From a virus, in IMG/VR virus record IMGVR_UViG_3300009495_000068, positions 1-25,857 of that record: a stretch of 25,857 bases of DNA; one strand, written 5' to 3'. Under the pieces are notes generated by a model. The model was not told the origin of the DNA. It was given only the letters and a program-made list of their open reading frames with translations, and searched no databases. A program made the translations under genes and the position numbers. Of this stretch, positions 2,858 to 25,839 are shown in pieces (the stretch's first letter is position 1; every line of letters begins with the position of its first letter).

Positions 2858-3036
2858 TTCTAATAACCGCACCAAAAAACACGATCATTTAACTCAACAG
2901 GGTAGCTAAACCTTAGTCCTGATGGGTTAGATGAGCCGTTTCTCATCTCGTTAACGCAAGCGTTATTGCCAGTTAAGAGTCCGCAAGGGTAGCTCAAAAC
3001 GCCAATTTCAATTTGCCAATTTCGGAGATGAATATA
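2858..3036 (+). promoter_or_regulatory. Structured leader before the capsid gene
   Basis: A 179-base gap, the largest in the structural module. It holds a hairpin with a 7-bp stem AGATGAG/CTCATCT (2929-2948), an inverted repeat TAACGC-AA-GCGTTA (2952-2965) and a 9-base direct repeat GCCAATTTC (3001-3009 and 3015-3023). The Shine-Dalgarno GGAG (3024-3027) follows directly. A leader that raises capsid expression by promoter activity or mRNA stability is an inference; I could not fix a convincing -35/-10 pair. Confidence 0.45.
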
Positions 3037-3891
3037 ATGGCTAATACAATCGCAAAAGCGTTTGTCCAACAGTTCCAGGACAACCTTATACATTTAGCGC
3101 AACAGAAAGGTTCACGCCTACGCGCATCAGTAAACGAGCAGTCAGTCACAGGCGAGAAGTTTAACTTTGAACGTCTAGGCACAGTCGCTGCTGTTGTTAA
3201 ATCTAGTCGGCATACCACTACACCTGTGTTGGAAGTTCCACACTCGCGTAGGGTCGCAACGATGACTGATTACCACTGGGCCGATTTGATCGATGACGAA
3301 GATAAAGTTCGTATGTTGATTAGCCCTGAGTCCCACTATGCCAAGTCTGGCGCAAACTCAATGGCTCGCGCATTCGATGATTTAATCATTGCTGCTGCCA
3401 CTGGTAACGCTGTCGATGGTGACGGCTCTAACGTAGCTTTGCCTGCTGGTCAAAAGATCGCTCATGGTTCTGCTGGTCTGACTCTTGCTAAGTTGATCTC
3501 TGCTAAAGAGATTCTTGATGGCAACGATGTTGATCCAGACGAAGAGCGTTTCTTTGTACTAGGCTCACAACAGGTTTCTAACTTGTTGAACACGACTGAG
3601 GTGAAATCTGCGGATTACAACTCTATCAAAGCCTTAGTACAAGGTGATATTGACACGTTTATGGGATTCAAGTTCCTACGTTCTGAGCGTTTAAACCTAG
3701 CTTCTACCCAGCGTAAATGTTTCGCATTTACAAAAGGTGCGATGGGACTCGGCATTGGGAAGGATGTTTCTACCAAAATCGATCTGCGCCCTGATAAGTC
3801 TTACGCTCATCAGGTGTACTTGTCATTCGTAGCTGGCGCAACTCGCGTTCAAGACGAATGTGTTGTTGAGGTACTTTGTACTGAATCCTAA
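3037..3891 (+). CDS. Major capsid protein
   Basis: A 284-residue coat protein. The segment TPVLEVPHSRRVATMTDYHW (about residues 62-81) and the following Asp-Asp-Glu-Asp-Lys, Ala-Arg-Ala-Phe-Asp-Asp and Ala-Ala-Ala-Thr-Gly-Asn-Ala stretches are characteristic of the podovirus coat family (Phage_capsid_2 type). I chose the ATG at 3037 (MANTIAKAF) because GGAG at 3024-3027 lies 9 bases before it; the frame is open further upstream to a TTG at 3013, which has no such site. It follows the scaffold gene and is followed by a strong terminator, so it is probably expressed at high level. Confidence 0.93.
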   Translation: MANTIAKAFVQQFQDNLIHLAQQKGSRLRASVNEQSVTGEKFNFERLGTVAAVVKSSRHTTTPVLEVPHSRRVATMTDYHWADLIDDEDKVRMLISPESHYAKSGANSMARAFDDLIIAAATGNAVDGDGSNVALPAGQKIAHGSAGLTLAKLISAKEILDGNDVDPDEERFFVLGSQQVSNLLNTTEVKSADYNSIKALVQGDIDTFMGFKFLRSERLNLASTQRKCFAFTKGAMGLGIGKDVSTKIDLRPDKSYAHQVYLSFVAGATRVQDECVVEVLCTES

Positions 3892-21732: not shown

Positions 21733-21920
21733 TTTCTGCAATCCCATTCTTCAACTACGCAACTAGGCGACACAAATGATCGCCCCCGATTGTCTGGCTT
21801 TGGTATGGCTTTTCTAGCCCACTTAATAAGAATCTGTCGCCTATTTATCTCTGCCACTATATCAGCGTCAGAGAGCATTGTAATAGGCACTGGCACTTGC
21901 ACTTGCACTTTAGTATTCAT
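21729..21920 (-). CDS. Hypothetical protein with Val-Gln repeat start
   Basis: A 63-residue protein between the GIY-YIG and Xis-like genes, overlapping both by 4 bases. It begins with alternating residues (VQVQVPVP) encoded by a hexamer repeat, followed by a helical stretch (LSDADIVAEINRRQILIKWA) with several basic residues and a C-terminal part with two Cys. The middle looks DNA-binding-like but shows no named motif. The function is unknown; the tight coupling suggests a role in the integration or excision unit. Confidence 0.65.
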   Translation of the reverse strand: MNTKVQVQVPVPITMLSDADIVAEINRRQILIKWARKAIPKPDNRGRSFVSPSCVVEEWDCRK

Positions 21921-22453
21921 TTTTCACCTTCATAAAATATACGATCTAATGACATTGGTGCAGACTTGTAACCATTATTCATATTTCCATTAAGGGCTGG
22001 CCTAAATGTATGTATGTATAGCGATTCAAGTCTGTCTAACATATAGTTTTCACAAGGAACCCAGGCTATCGAGTCAAAGTCTTTAGTGCTTTGGTGGGTT
22101 GATATTCGGCTATATACCGAAGTCGATTGACCAACGTAAACTACAGACTTATTTTTAATAAGAAAATATACGCCTACTGCTTTGTCCCAGGGCTGGCATC
22201 CATCCACGACCTCACTCTCAGTAAGCATGGTTTTGCTTGTTAGCTTGGCAGATAGGTTGCCTAAGATAGCCTCCCTTTCTAACTTATCGCGCTCACTATT
22301 AAGTTCTCTAATTCGCATTTCTACAACGTCCAGCCTTAATAACTGCTCCTTCTTAGCTTCATCTTTGATTAACTTATTCCGTTTAATAGTGTCACGCCTC
22401 TTCTGAGCTATAGCTATCTTCTGTTCTGGCGTTTTTGTGTGGTAGTAATCCAA
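21917..22453 (-). CDS. GIY-YIG nuclease with N-terminal coiled coil
   Basis: A 178-residue protein starting at TTG (22451-22453) with a strong AGGAGG (22462-22467) 8 bases upstream. Residues 1-65 are a Lys/Glu-rich coiled coil. The GIY-YIG fold spans about 92-156: GVY at 94-96, YVG at 106-108, Arg116, Glu143 in RLESLYI and Asn155 in PALN, so the expected catalytic set is complete. It could nick or cut DNA, as a homing-type or repair-like nuclease or an anti-host factor. The 3' end overlaps the next gene. The target is unknown. Confidence 0.85.
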   Translation of the reverse strand: MDYYHTKTPEQKIAIAQKRRDTIKRNKLIKDEAKKEQLLRLDVVEMRIRELNSERDKLEREAILGNLSAKLTSKTMLTESEVVDGCQPWDKAVGVYFLIKNKSVVYVGQSTSVYSRISTHQSTKDFDSIAWVPCENYMLDRLESLYIHTFRPALNGNMNNGYKSAPMSLDRIFYEGEK

Positions 22454-22703: not shown

Positions 22704-23033
22704 TTAAAATGGAATACCATCAAGATTGCCATGCTTATCGACAGGGCCGTAGCCAACGTCATTGGTGTTTGGGCCTGTGTTCCAATCATGCGTAGCTGCT
22801 TTGGCCTGCGCCATTTCAGTTGACTGTTGGGGTGGTTGTTGATGCGGTTGGTTTTCTTTTGGGTTAAAACTAAATGACATAAACTTCTGCCCATTTTTGC
22901 TAGTTTTAATCCATGCAGACATCCAAATATGTACACCATTAATTTCACAATTTCCAGTGTAGTCAGGGTGTTTGTCTGATTTCTTGTCAGCCTTAAACAA
23001 AGCCCCAGTGTTATTATTGTCGTACTGACTCAT
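22704..23033 (-). CDS. Single-strand DNA-binding-like small protein
   Basis: A 109-residue protein from ATG 23033 (MSQYDNNNTG), with GGAG 7 bases upstream; the ATG 6 bases earlier is too close to that site. The N-terminal half (about 10-60) is beta-rich, with HPDYTGNCEINGVHIWMSAW and a KFMSFSF strand, as in short phage proteins that may bind single-stranded DNA. The middle is Gln/Pro-rich, and the last residues, LDGIPF, resemble the DDDIPF tip by which SSB recruits partners. Its place next to the exonuclease supports this. It is shorter than a full SSB, so the assignment is an inference. Confidence 0.65.
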   Translation of the reverse strand: MSQYDNNNTGALFKADKKSDKHPDYTGNCEINGVHIWMSAWIKTSKNGQKFMSFSFNPKENQPHQQPPQQSTEMAQAKAATHDWNTGPNTNDVGYGPVDKHGNLDGIPF

Positions 23034-23051
23034 TTTCATTCTCCAGTTATT

Positions 23052-23669
23052 TTAAAAAGTTAGATCCATATGACCTTCATTTACTACATCTAAAAACTTC
23101 AATAGCTTTGCTCTGCACTCTTCAATGTCATCAAAGTCGTCCCTGGTGACTGTCTTAACGAATAGTGGGCGTTCATAATTTCGATCATCGAAGCTGGCAA
23201 ATACCCAATACTTAACATCGTCTGACATAATGAATGGGGCTTTAACCTGGTGCAGATATTCTTTGGGTATTTCGTTTTTAATAAGATACTCAACGTGTTT
23301 TTTACTGTTGGGACATTTGGTTTCGATGCCGCCAACTATCACGCCATCTTCTTCTACAATGCCATCTGGCGAGATTGAGAAGCGTGGGTATGCGTCATTA
23401 AGAAGTAAGCCTGTCTCAGTAAACTGGATGCCTGTCTCATCCTCTGTAGCGCGTATAGCAAATGGCTCAAGCTCATTACCTCTGTCAATTGCAGGGGTGC
23501 TGAGATCGCTCATTTGAACCTCAGTCATGCGGTCTGCAATAAGCGAGTACATCAATGTCTTCTGGACTGCTGGTGTCCCTAGTGCGCTACTAAGGCTAGT
23601 GCCAGTAACATTGCCATGCCTAGCTTTAAGCCAATCCAAAGACTTCTGCTCCATATCAACCTTATACAT
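23052..23669 (-). CDS. YqaJ / lambda-exonuclease-type recombination nuclease
   Basis: A 205-residue exonuclease of the lambda Exo/YqaJ family, which resects double-strand ends for phage recombination. Visible motifs: DWLKARHGNVTGTS (12-25), RGNELEP with Glu66 (63-69), SPDG with Asp102 and ETK with Glu116 and Lys118, the PD-(D/E)xK set, then LHQVK with Gln141. AGGAG lies 6 bases before the ATG, and the start overlaps the preceding gene by 8 bases. Its expected partner, a single-strand annealing protein, is not obvious in the operon. Confidence 0.9.
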   Translation of the reverse strand: MYKVDMEQKSLDWLKARHGNVTGTSLSSALGTPAVQKTLMYSLIADRMTEVQMSDLSTPAIDRGNELEPFAIRATEDETGIQFTETGLLLNDAYPRFSISPDGIVEEDGVIVGGIETKCPNSKKHVEYLIKNEIPKEYLHQVKAPFIMSDDVKYWVFASFDDRNYERPLFVKTVTRDDFDDIEECRAKLLKFLDVVNEGHMDLTF

Positions 23670-24201
23670 TAGACGCTCCTATCTTGTTTTTCATGGTGTC
23701 TTTATGCTCAGTCAAACGAGCCTTTAAATGTTTTGGTATTGAAGTAAACGCCTGCTTTAATTCTTGCATTGTGGTGCAATTACTTAGGCTGTTTACATAC
23801 TGATCAATGTTTTCATTGGTATCAGGTATAGCTGCTCTAACGCGCAGAGCCATAACTTCTGAGCCAAAAGCTTTTACCATAGTTGCGTATATCTGAATGC
23901 TCTGGCCTTTCCAGTGGTGGTAGCTAGGGCCGTACAAAGAGGCAATGGTTTTTACATTGGTAATGTTCATGACCATTGGTGGGGCATTTACAAAAGTGAT
24001 TACTGGCACTTCTTCTTGCTGACCACTTGCACTTCTGATGCTTTGCATTTCCACATGATCGATTGTGGCGACCAGCTCTTCACCTTCATTTAAGTTATGA
24101 GAGCCAAGCAACATAGTCTTATTTGGAAATAGGTTTTTCCAATGCGTTGTCTGGCTAGGCTCATAAACAATGCTAGGGTTGATTTGCGCTACATTATTCA
24201 T
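23662..24201 (-). CDS. Conserved phage protein beside the exonuclease, function unknown
   Basis: A 179-residue protein overlapping the exonuclease by 8 bases. GGAG lies 7 bases before the ATG, inside the preceding tiny ORF. Residues about 30-120 are beta-rich, with MLLGSHNLNEGEELVATID, MVMNITNVKTIASLYG and GQSIQIYATMVKAFG segments followed by ALRVRAA. I have seen this pattern in unnamed phage proteins near recombination genes; it could be an OB-like DNA-binding domain. The C-terminal third is helical and basic. As the only gene tightly coupled to the exonuclease it is the best candidate for its annealing or loading partner. Confidence 0.75.
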   Translation of the reverse strand: MNNVAQINPSIVYEPSQTTHWKNLFPNKTMLLGSHNLNEGEELVATIDHVEMQSIRSASGQQEEVPVITFVNAPPMVMNITNVKTIASLYGPSYHHWKGQSIQIYATMVKAFGSEVMALRVRAAIPDTNENIDQYVNSLSNCTTMQELKQAFTSIPKHLKARLTEHKDTMKNKIGASNV

Positions 24202-24263
24202 AGTTCTACTCCCGATAAAATTATTACGATTACAAACAACCAGGCTTGTACTGAAGCACTCAC
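24198..24263 (-). CDS. Tiny membrane peptide, 21 residues
   Basis: Starts at GTG 24263, inside the GTGA stop of the upstream tiny ORF, and ends at a TGA overlapping the ATG of the 179-aa gene (24201). Residues about 6-17 (QAWLFVIVIILS) are strongly hydrophobic and could span a membrane. It carries the Shine-Dalgarno of the downstream gene, so it may serve as a coupling leader and not as a functional peptide. Confidence 0.45.
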   Translation of the reverse strand: MSASVQAWLFVIVIILSGVEL

Positions 24264-24349
24264 GATGTCATACCTACTGTCCACCAGACTGTGCAAACGA
24301 TCCAGATAACTACACCTAATGCATTGATCACAAAAGTCTCTTTAGTCAT
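24260..24349 (-). CDS. Tiny membrane peptide, 29 residues
   Basis: Starts at ATG 24349, 3 bases after the stop of the 114-aa gene, with GGAG 9 bases upstream. After a polar start (MTKETFVIN) residues about 10-25 (ALGVVIWIVCTVWWTV) form one hydrophobic span rich in Trp. It ends in a 4-base overlap with the 21-residue ORF. Good ribosome-binding site and exact coupling on both sides support expression. The function is unknown. Confidence 0.55.
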   Translation of the reverse strand: MTKETFVINALGVVIWIVCTVWWTVGMTS

Positions 24350-24352
24350 GGG

Positions 24353-24697
24353 TTAATGCTCCGAATGCTTGTCTGCGTACCACTCAAGTGTTAACTCAGG
24401 GTGATAGTCTTTAAAGTAAACAGCAGCACACTTTGTAATGATTTCTTCTGAAAGCTGCTGGGCATCATCTGGAAAGCGAAAAGCCAGCCAAATAACTCTA
24501 ACTTGCTCGTCTTCATCGCCATACTGTAAAAGGTCGTCAACATAGTAATGAGTCTTTCCAATCTTGATATAGCTATCGTAGAGCAAGTCATCTTTAAGCT
24601 CGTTAAAAGCATCTTCAAGTAGATAGTCAGGTGCATCAATAACATCGGTGTGAATGTTGACCTGATTAGTAATGTGGCAATGCGTTAATGAGTTCAT
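24353..24697 (-). CDS. Hypothetical acidic protein, first gene of the early operon
   Basis: A 114-residue acidic protein; GGAG lies 6 bases before the ATG. The sequence is rich in Asp, Glu, Leu and Tyr (LLEDAFNELKDDLLYDSYIK near 26-45), with a LEWYADKHSEH end. I recognise no domain. As the first gene behind the candidate early promoter it may be an early host-interaction factor or anti-restriction mimic, but acidity and position are the only grounds. Confidence 0.65.
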   Translation of the reverse strand: MNSLTHCHITNQVNIHTDVIDAPDYLLEDAFNELKDDLLYDSYIKIGKTHYYVDDLLQYGDEDEQVRVIWLAFRFPDDAQQLSEEIITKCAAVYFKDYHPELTLEWYADKHSEH

Positions 24698-24728: not shown

Positions 24729-24757
24729 ATAATAAGTTAAGTTAACAAGGAATGCAA
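24729..24757 (-). promoter_or_regulatory. Candidate leftward early promoter
   Basis: On the minus strand TTGCAT (24752-24757) and TATTAT (24729-24734) are separated by exactly 17 bases. The spacer holds overlapping AGTTAAGTTAAC repeats that could be a repressor site. It lies about 30 bases before the 114-aa gene and would drive the recombination operon. Confidence 0.55.
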
Positions 24758-25081: not shown

Positions 25082-25717
25082 TTACTCGGCTACAAATGAG
25101 CCAATCACCACTCCTATTATTTTAGAACCATCTGTAAATGCTTCTATTGCGTACTGTGGGTTGATTGGCTTGAGCAGCTTCTTACCCCCATCTTCAATGT
25201 ACTCTTTAAAAGTCGCTTCCTCAGAATCTTCAAGTTTAGCCATAACGCGAGAGCCACTAACTAATGGCGCGTCTGGGTCAATGAATATAATGATTCCTGC
25301 TGGATAACTTTTATTGTTAGGGTAGGGCGATGTCATCGAATCCCCGTTAACAGTCGTGGCAAAAGTATTTTCACCACATTGAACTGGGCAGTACAACCAA
25401 TCCACTGTCTCCTTGTCTAGCTTCATATAATCTCCTTGATAATATGCATTAACTTCATTCCACCTGATTAATGGAATTCGGCTGTGAATAGGTGCAATTG
25501 AAACCTCACCTCCGAATGTTGCTCCATGCAATATGTAGTCTGGGGCGCAATCTAACGCCCTGGATAGTGCTGATAAGTGCTTGTTCTTAGGCTCTACTTC
25601 CGCATTTTCCCAATACGTTATTGAGGTTGCAGACACCCCCACCAATTCGCCCAATGCTCGCTGGGTTAAGTTTTTTTCTATTCTACGAGATTTAATTCGT
25701 TGTCCAGAAGTTGTCAT
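25082..25717 (-). CDS. CI/LexA-type phage repressor
   Basis: A 211-residue repressor that keeps the prophage silent. Residues about 5-62 are a Cro/C1-type helix-turn-helix (LTQRALGELVGVSATSITYW). The C-terminal half is an S24 peptidase fold with Ser127 in GDSM and Lys171 in EATFKEY as the catalytic pair, and LLKPINPQY (181-189), typical of phage repressors. The usual Ala-Gly cleavage dipeptide before the catalytic domain is absent: the matching place reads Glu-Val-Asn (88-90). AGGA lies 8 bases before the ATG. It is divergent from the cro-like gene across a shared operator region. Confidence 0.92.
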   Translation of the reverse strand: MTTSGQRIKSRRIEKNLTQRALGELVGVSATSITYWENAEVEPKNKHLSALSRALDCAPDYILHGATFGGEVSIAPIHSRIPLIRWNEVNAYYQGDYMKLDKETVDWLYCPVQCGENTFATTVNGDSMTSPYPNNKSYPAGIIIFIDPDAPLVSGSRVMAKLEDSEEATFKEYIEDGGKKLLKPINPQYAIEAFTDGSKIIGVVIGSFVAE

Positions 25718-25766: not shown

Positions 25767-25839
25767 AAGTAATCTTATCGGGTATTGACCTAAGTTGCGT
25801 TGGTGTGAGACTATAAGTCAACTTAACAAGGAGGCAGCG

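Follow-up and report, generated by a model that had tools for sequence, protein, structure and literature searches.

Two very short open reading frames, ORF1 and ORF2, lie between two early genes of a virus, and they raise the question of whether they are genes at all and, if so, what their products do. Genes of 21–31 codons are below the size that is well handled by standard gene finding. The window analyzed here is the whole virus record of 25,857 bases.

Layout of the locus and its operon

The two ORFs, their junctions and the adjacent ribosome-binding sites are as follows:

24260–24349, minus strand: ORF1, ATG start, a 29-aa microprotein (MTKETFVINALGVVIWIVCTVWWTVGMTS) with one predicted helix
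24198–24263, minus strand: ORF2, GTG start, a 21-aa microprotein, (M)SASVQAWLFVIVIILSGVEL
24260–24263, minus strand: GTGA stop-start overlap of ORF1 and ORF2, read from the sequence
24198–24201, minus strand: ATGA stop-start overlap of ORF2 and the 179-aa gene, read from the sequence
24359–24362, minus strand: GGAG, likely ribosome-binding site of ORF1, within the last codons of the upstream gene
24209–24213, minus strand: GGGAG, likely ribosome-binding site of the 179-aa gene, within the last codons of ORF2

According to the initial annotation, the space between the flanking genes is filled exactly by two ORFs linked through 4-base overlaps. This holds for the ORF positions and for two of the three junctions, but not for the junction between the upstream gene and ORF1, where the stop codon of the 114-aa gene (24353–24355) leaves a 3-base gap and no overlap. 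A comparable chain, with both ORFs of at least 15 aa and the same overlaps, arose in 116 of 20,000 dinucleotide shuffles of the gap (0.6%). The layout alone is therefore suggestive only, and it is conservation that decides.

The surrounding features place the pair in the left early operon of a temperate phage:

24353–24697, minus strand: early gene upstream of the pair, 114 aa; in relatives, the left operon begins with it
23662–24201, minus strand: downstream gene, 179 aa, phrog_21613, in the annealing-protein gene position of relatives
23052–23669, minus strand: YqaJ-family recombination exonuclease (PF09588, 2.2e-20)
22704–23039, minus strand: single-strand DNA binding-like protein (phrog_18154, 1.8e-16)
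21917–22453, minus strand: GIY-YIG protein, close to the recombination genes
25082–25717, minus strand: CI/LexA-type phage repressor with HTH and S24 peptidase (PF01381, PF00717)
24729–24757, minus strand: candidate early left promoter, TTGCAT-17-TATTAT, identified by eye and scoring below the consensus-scan cut-off
24732–24751: operator-like repeat inside the candidate promoter, 90% identical over 20 nt to 25813–25832
25813–25832: operator-like repeat, second occurrence, beyond the repressor gene
24833–24815: terminator-like hairpin

The gene order runs from the repressor through a 72-aa gene, the 114-aa gene, ORF1, ORF2 and the 179-aa gene to the YqaJ exonuclease, followed by the SSB-like protein, the GIY-YIG protein, small genes and a lambda-type integrase, for which the relatives listed are only 29–33% identical. 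The major capsid protein (3034–3891, plus strand) has its closest matches in Pelagibacter phages (58% to EXVC032P Baldr), and many Vibrio phages have similar ones; the lambda-type integrase and the repressor are found in the same window.

Judging from sequence patterns in the control regions, repressor control of the left operon is likely. The consensus scan returned five promoter-like sites, fewer than the shuffle mean of 8.4. The best word common to the left and right control regions of the window scored 15/17, against a maximum of 14 in 12 shuffles. The best shared word was also one match above the 12-shuffle maximum in L086, L088, L098 and L099, and at or below it in the other five of the ten contigs. 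With this excess in 5 of 10 contigs only, repressor control falls short of being demonstrated. Palindrome-like words occur in relatives at a similar distance from the left gene.

The 179-aa protein is a candidate for an unrecognised annealing protein, by its position where relatives carry ERF or Rad52-like proteins; its fold model is poor (pLDDT 52). Relatives of it were found in six Vibrio phage records, and it directly precedes the YqaJ exonuclease in both the window and the Vibrio phages. In Vibrio phages 234P9 and 340E47.2 (L003, 2645–3004), a protein that resembles the GIY-YIG protein by appearance stands directly before the gene homologous to the 179-aa gene. The genome-contig search returned no relative of the 179-aa protein, and the ORF1 pattern gave two chance matches there. 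The genes upstream of the pair are of two types, of 112–118 aa and about 140 aa (window 24353–24697, L061, L069 and L096), with a common N-terminal stretch like MNS..CHITNQVN..TD. They look as if one N-terminal segment had been kept and the remainder swapped.

Conservation of the pair among relatives

IMG/VR loci were reached through the flanking genes, 18 via the 179-aa protein and 19 via the 114-aa protein. Both ORFs are intact and coupled in 17 of the 18 loci reached from downstream; the remaining one, L011, has ORF2 and a different gene in the place of ORF1. Among the 19 loci reached from upstream, ORF1 is present in 18 and a complete ORF2 in 17, the two exceptions (L038 and L041) being truncated at the end of the contig. 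The initial annotation had named disrupted ORFs next to preserved flanking genes as the finding that would speak against the pair; no such case was encountered.

Extension of the neighbor-found loci by motif searches and ORF1 profiles yielded 38 distinct complete haplotypes of ORF1 plus ORF2 in IMG/VR, encoding 31 distinct ORF1 and 24 distinct ORF2 proteins. These haplotypes are mosaic relatives rather than independent samples, and part of them were found by ORF1 or ORF2 motifs, which biases the apparent conservation upward. The scan demanded only the C-terminal motif of ORF1 and a stop codon, and no overlap. The junction between ORF1 and ORF2 nevertheless reads NTGA in 38/38 haplotypes (33 ATGA, 4 GTGA and 1 TTGA), and the junction between ORF2 and the next gene reads ATGA in 37/38. 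Motif matches in L043 and L049 were rejected as unrelated chance matches.

The initial annotation had also assigned a ribosome-binding site to each ORF, which is borne out for ORF1 only. In the 31 haplotypes scored, strong anti-SD pairing (≤ −5 kcal/mol) was found ahead of ORF1 in 29 and of the downstream gene in 29, but of ORF2 in only six, which is near the 17% of random 16-mers. Since ORF2 mostly has no strong SD, it is probably made by termination-reinitiation on ORF1. A published study describes translational coupling by 4-nt overlaps as tightly distance-dependent, and short overlaps as enriched among genes for subunits of heteromeric complexes (PMC10666635).

The codon-level check suggested in the initial annotation came out in favor of the pair, as both ORFs are under purifying selection as protein. 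Across 11 distinct sequences each from neighbor-found loci, we obtained a pS of 0.616, a pN of 0.238 and a dN/dS of about 0.22 for ORF1, and a pS of 0.504, a pN of 0.265 and a dN/dS of about 0.39 for ORF2. The haplotypes used also matched one of two motifs; L011 and L024, the latter with a divergent ORF1, were left out. None of 200 column shuffles gave a ratio as low as observed for either ORF (0/200 each), with a slim margin for ORF2 (lowest shuffle ratio 0.532 vs. 0.529 observed), whose C-terminal conservation partly serves the ribosome site of the next gene. An RNA element was rejected as the explanation, as RNAalifold found no consensus fold over 31 rows and 158 columns. The two ORFs are real and have been conserved in evolution as a pair in many related uncultured viruses.

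The pair is retained while its neighbors change. At least five kinds of gene follow it, namely the 179-aa family, ERF, two small-gene families and, in L140/L141, a DUF7173 gene; the upstream genes differ among relatives as well. The recombination genes behind the pair vary between ERF, Rad52_Rad22, AAA_24, and phrog_21613 with YqaJ, the annealing proteins behind the small-gene families being of the ERF or Rad52-like kind. The genes behind the pair in L140 encode an AAA_24 ATPase and a DUF669 protein, an arrangement that we take to be Sak4 with its SSB. In eight repressor-bearing contigs, all of which carry the pair (8/8), the repressor is 33–57% identical to that of the window in seven (full range 33% to 91%), ORF1 36% to 97% and ORF2 39% to 95%, and the three identities do not track one another. 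The pair is thus independent of its flanking genes and is conserved as a unit in mosaic phages that have exchanged almost everything around it. Overlap conservation combined with neighbor-based relatives can reveal such genes without expression data.

Neither ORF matched a family among the Pfam-A, PHROGs and NCBIfam profiles, a search that is weak at 21–29 aa. Two versions of ORF1 gave no tblastn match in 50,697 INPHARED phage records, a comparison likewise weak for queries of 29–31 aa. The ORF1 profile had no match in four Vibrio phage records carrying a homologue of the 179-aa gene, and in the same comparison it matched 14/14 IMG/VR records, which had been chosen for holding ORF1. Titles and abstracts yielded no published description of the pair, although an overlap with catalogues of predicted phage small genes is possible. 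Large catalogues of this kind exist and may contain ORF1 and ORF2 unnamed. The portions consulted of the small-protein review by Beggs and Bassler (PMC11323111) hold no matching case. The pair represents a family that is new and unannotated; the general class to which it belongs, that of small membrane proteins encoded by phages, is known.

Possible function of the pair

ORF1 reaches a Kyte–Doolittle maximum of 1.57–2.13 over 19 residues, and ORF2 one of 2.31–2.80 over 15 residues, its hydrophobic stretch being short. ORF1 has a predicted hydrophobic helix of sufficient length for a single-pass membrane protein; ORF2 is likened to one by the hydrophobicity of its 15-residue stretch only. AlphaFold2 modelled ORF1 of L021 as a helix from residue 5 to 30 with a mean pLDDT of 91, a value that a short single helix reaches easily. 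Variability along ORF1 has its periodicity maximum at 100 degrees (p = 0.021), and I10, G14, I17, position 21, W25 and G28 (alignment numbering) make up a conserved face; no helical periodicity was found in the variability of ORF2 (p = 0.41). Because of the purifying selection, the intactness in relatives, the strong hydrophobicity and the helix model of ORF1, phage membrane microproteins, one of the readings offered by the initial annotation, are the best reading of the two ORFs.

With moderate confidence, we posit that ORF1 and ORF2 are an early, repressor-controlled and translationally coupled pair of single-helix membrane microproteins, probably with a joint action on a host membrane protein or on the membrane of the host itself. 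The pair would be expressed from the early leftward operon, whose promoter is probably shut off by the repressor in the prophage. ORF1 would be initiated at its own strong ribosome site, and ORF2 made mainly by ribosomes that finish ORF1 and reinitiate at the start codon overlapping its stop, which would link the ratio of the two products. Both helices would most likely lie within the inner membrane of the host and function jointly, with ORF1 contacting a host membrane protein or the membrane through its conserved face. The pair may thereby serve as an early, host-directed accessory to the recombination and replication genes downstream. Distances of ORF1 and ORF2 are correlated (r = 0.28, p = 0.009, 36 haplotypes), but hardly more strongly than those of either with the unrelated downstream gene (0.27 for ORF1, 0.22 for ORF2), and the alleles of the two ORFs reassort, so that no specific co-evolution of a complex is demonstrated. 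A more far-reaching version can be offered only tentatively: an undescribed micropeptide family, forming a two-helix complex at the core of the immediate-early operon in many temperate phages, that, upon induction, might reprogram a single protein of the host inner membrane regardless of the phage's recombination system. The pair is a concrete candidate, open to experimental testing, for a phage function exerted early at the host membrane.

The pair might instead be a membrane factor of the recombination module, anchoring or assisting the annealing protein or exonuclease at the membrane and not directed at the host. Its place ahead of recombination genes in the contigs with enough flank, with any annealing-protein family, would fit this role. 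We nonetheless regard it as unlikely, since a helix pair that binds a recombinase should track the recombinase family, whereas the same ORF types accompany ERF, Rad52-like and phrog_21613 modules; in addition, no ORF1 match was obtained in the four phage records that contain a homologous 179-aa gene.

Small toxic membrane peptides, either depolarising or pore-forming in the manner of DinQ and TimP or with an early holin-like activity, resemble ORF1 and ORF2 in size, hydrophobicity and single helix. The position of the pair in an early operon beside repressor and recombination genes argues against toxicity, and the conserved glycine/tryptophan face of ORF1 suggests a specific contact. The search for a type I antitoxin RNA gave no Rfam family match in the window, so that no known regulatory RNA accompanies the pair there; an undescribed RNA would escape such a search. 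We consider a toxic function rather improbable.

The other suggestion of the initial annotation, that the ORFs are leaders that couple translation, implies that they are translated to load ribosomes on the downstream recombination gene and that the peptides are inert. The ATGA junction to the next gene in 37/38 haplotypes and the location of the next gene's SD inside ORF2 are compatible with such a role. A leader peptide should combine conserved downstream coupling with a free amino-acid sequence, but the amino acids of both ORFs are constrained, the same pair precedes unrelated downstream genes, and the downstream gene has a strong SD of its own (29/31). Moreover, the distantly related L140 and L141, in which no gene directly precedes the pair, retain it with the ORF1/ORF2 overlap kept, although a 10-base gap separates its TAA stop from the start codon of the following gene. 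Coupling to the next gene is therefore dispensable and the pair is not merely a leader; a role as leader only is insufficient as an explanation and very improbable.

We consider it highly unlikely that the pair is a functional analogue of lambda CIII that inhibits the host membrane protease FtsH and thereby steers the lysis-lysogeny decision. Its products share with CIII the class of operon position, the left early operon of a temperate phage, and a very small, helical nature, but CIII is amphipathic whereas ORF1 and ORF2 are transmembrane-like, and no sequence relation was found in Pfam, PHROGs or NCBIfam. Chance ORFs in the spacer, although shuffling of the gap gives a comparable chain in 0.6% of cases, are refuted by conservation, given 38 haplotypes with intact ORFs and protein-level selection, and have next to no probability.

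Comparison with known systems

Lambda CIII is described as a helical, oligomeric inhibitor of FtsH (PMC1838920). Like the products of the present pair, it is very small and helical and is encoded early by a temperate phage. It is a single amphipathic protein, whereas the pair consists of two hydrophobic single helices, and no sequence relation between them and CIII was found. The lambda pL operon has in common with the operon described here that it is an early leftward operon flanking the repressor, with small genes before the recombination genes, and leads towards excisionase and integrase. Its genes include kil, cIII, gam, bet and exo, and no small lambda gene is known to form such a coupled pair of single-helix membrane proteins.

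In phage P22, the small gene arf adjoins the annealing gene erf. The likeness is that of a small gene beside a gene of the ERF family; Arf is not known to be a membrane protein. DinQ and TimP are similar to ORF1 and ORF2 in being single-helix or membrane-targeted micropeptides. They are bacterial and controlled by small RNAs, whereas ORF1 and ORF2 belong to a phage, where they are coupled genes of an early operon.
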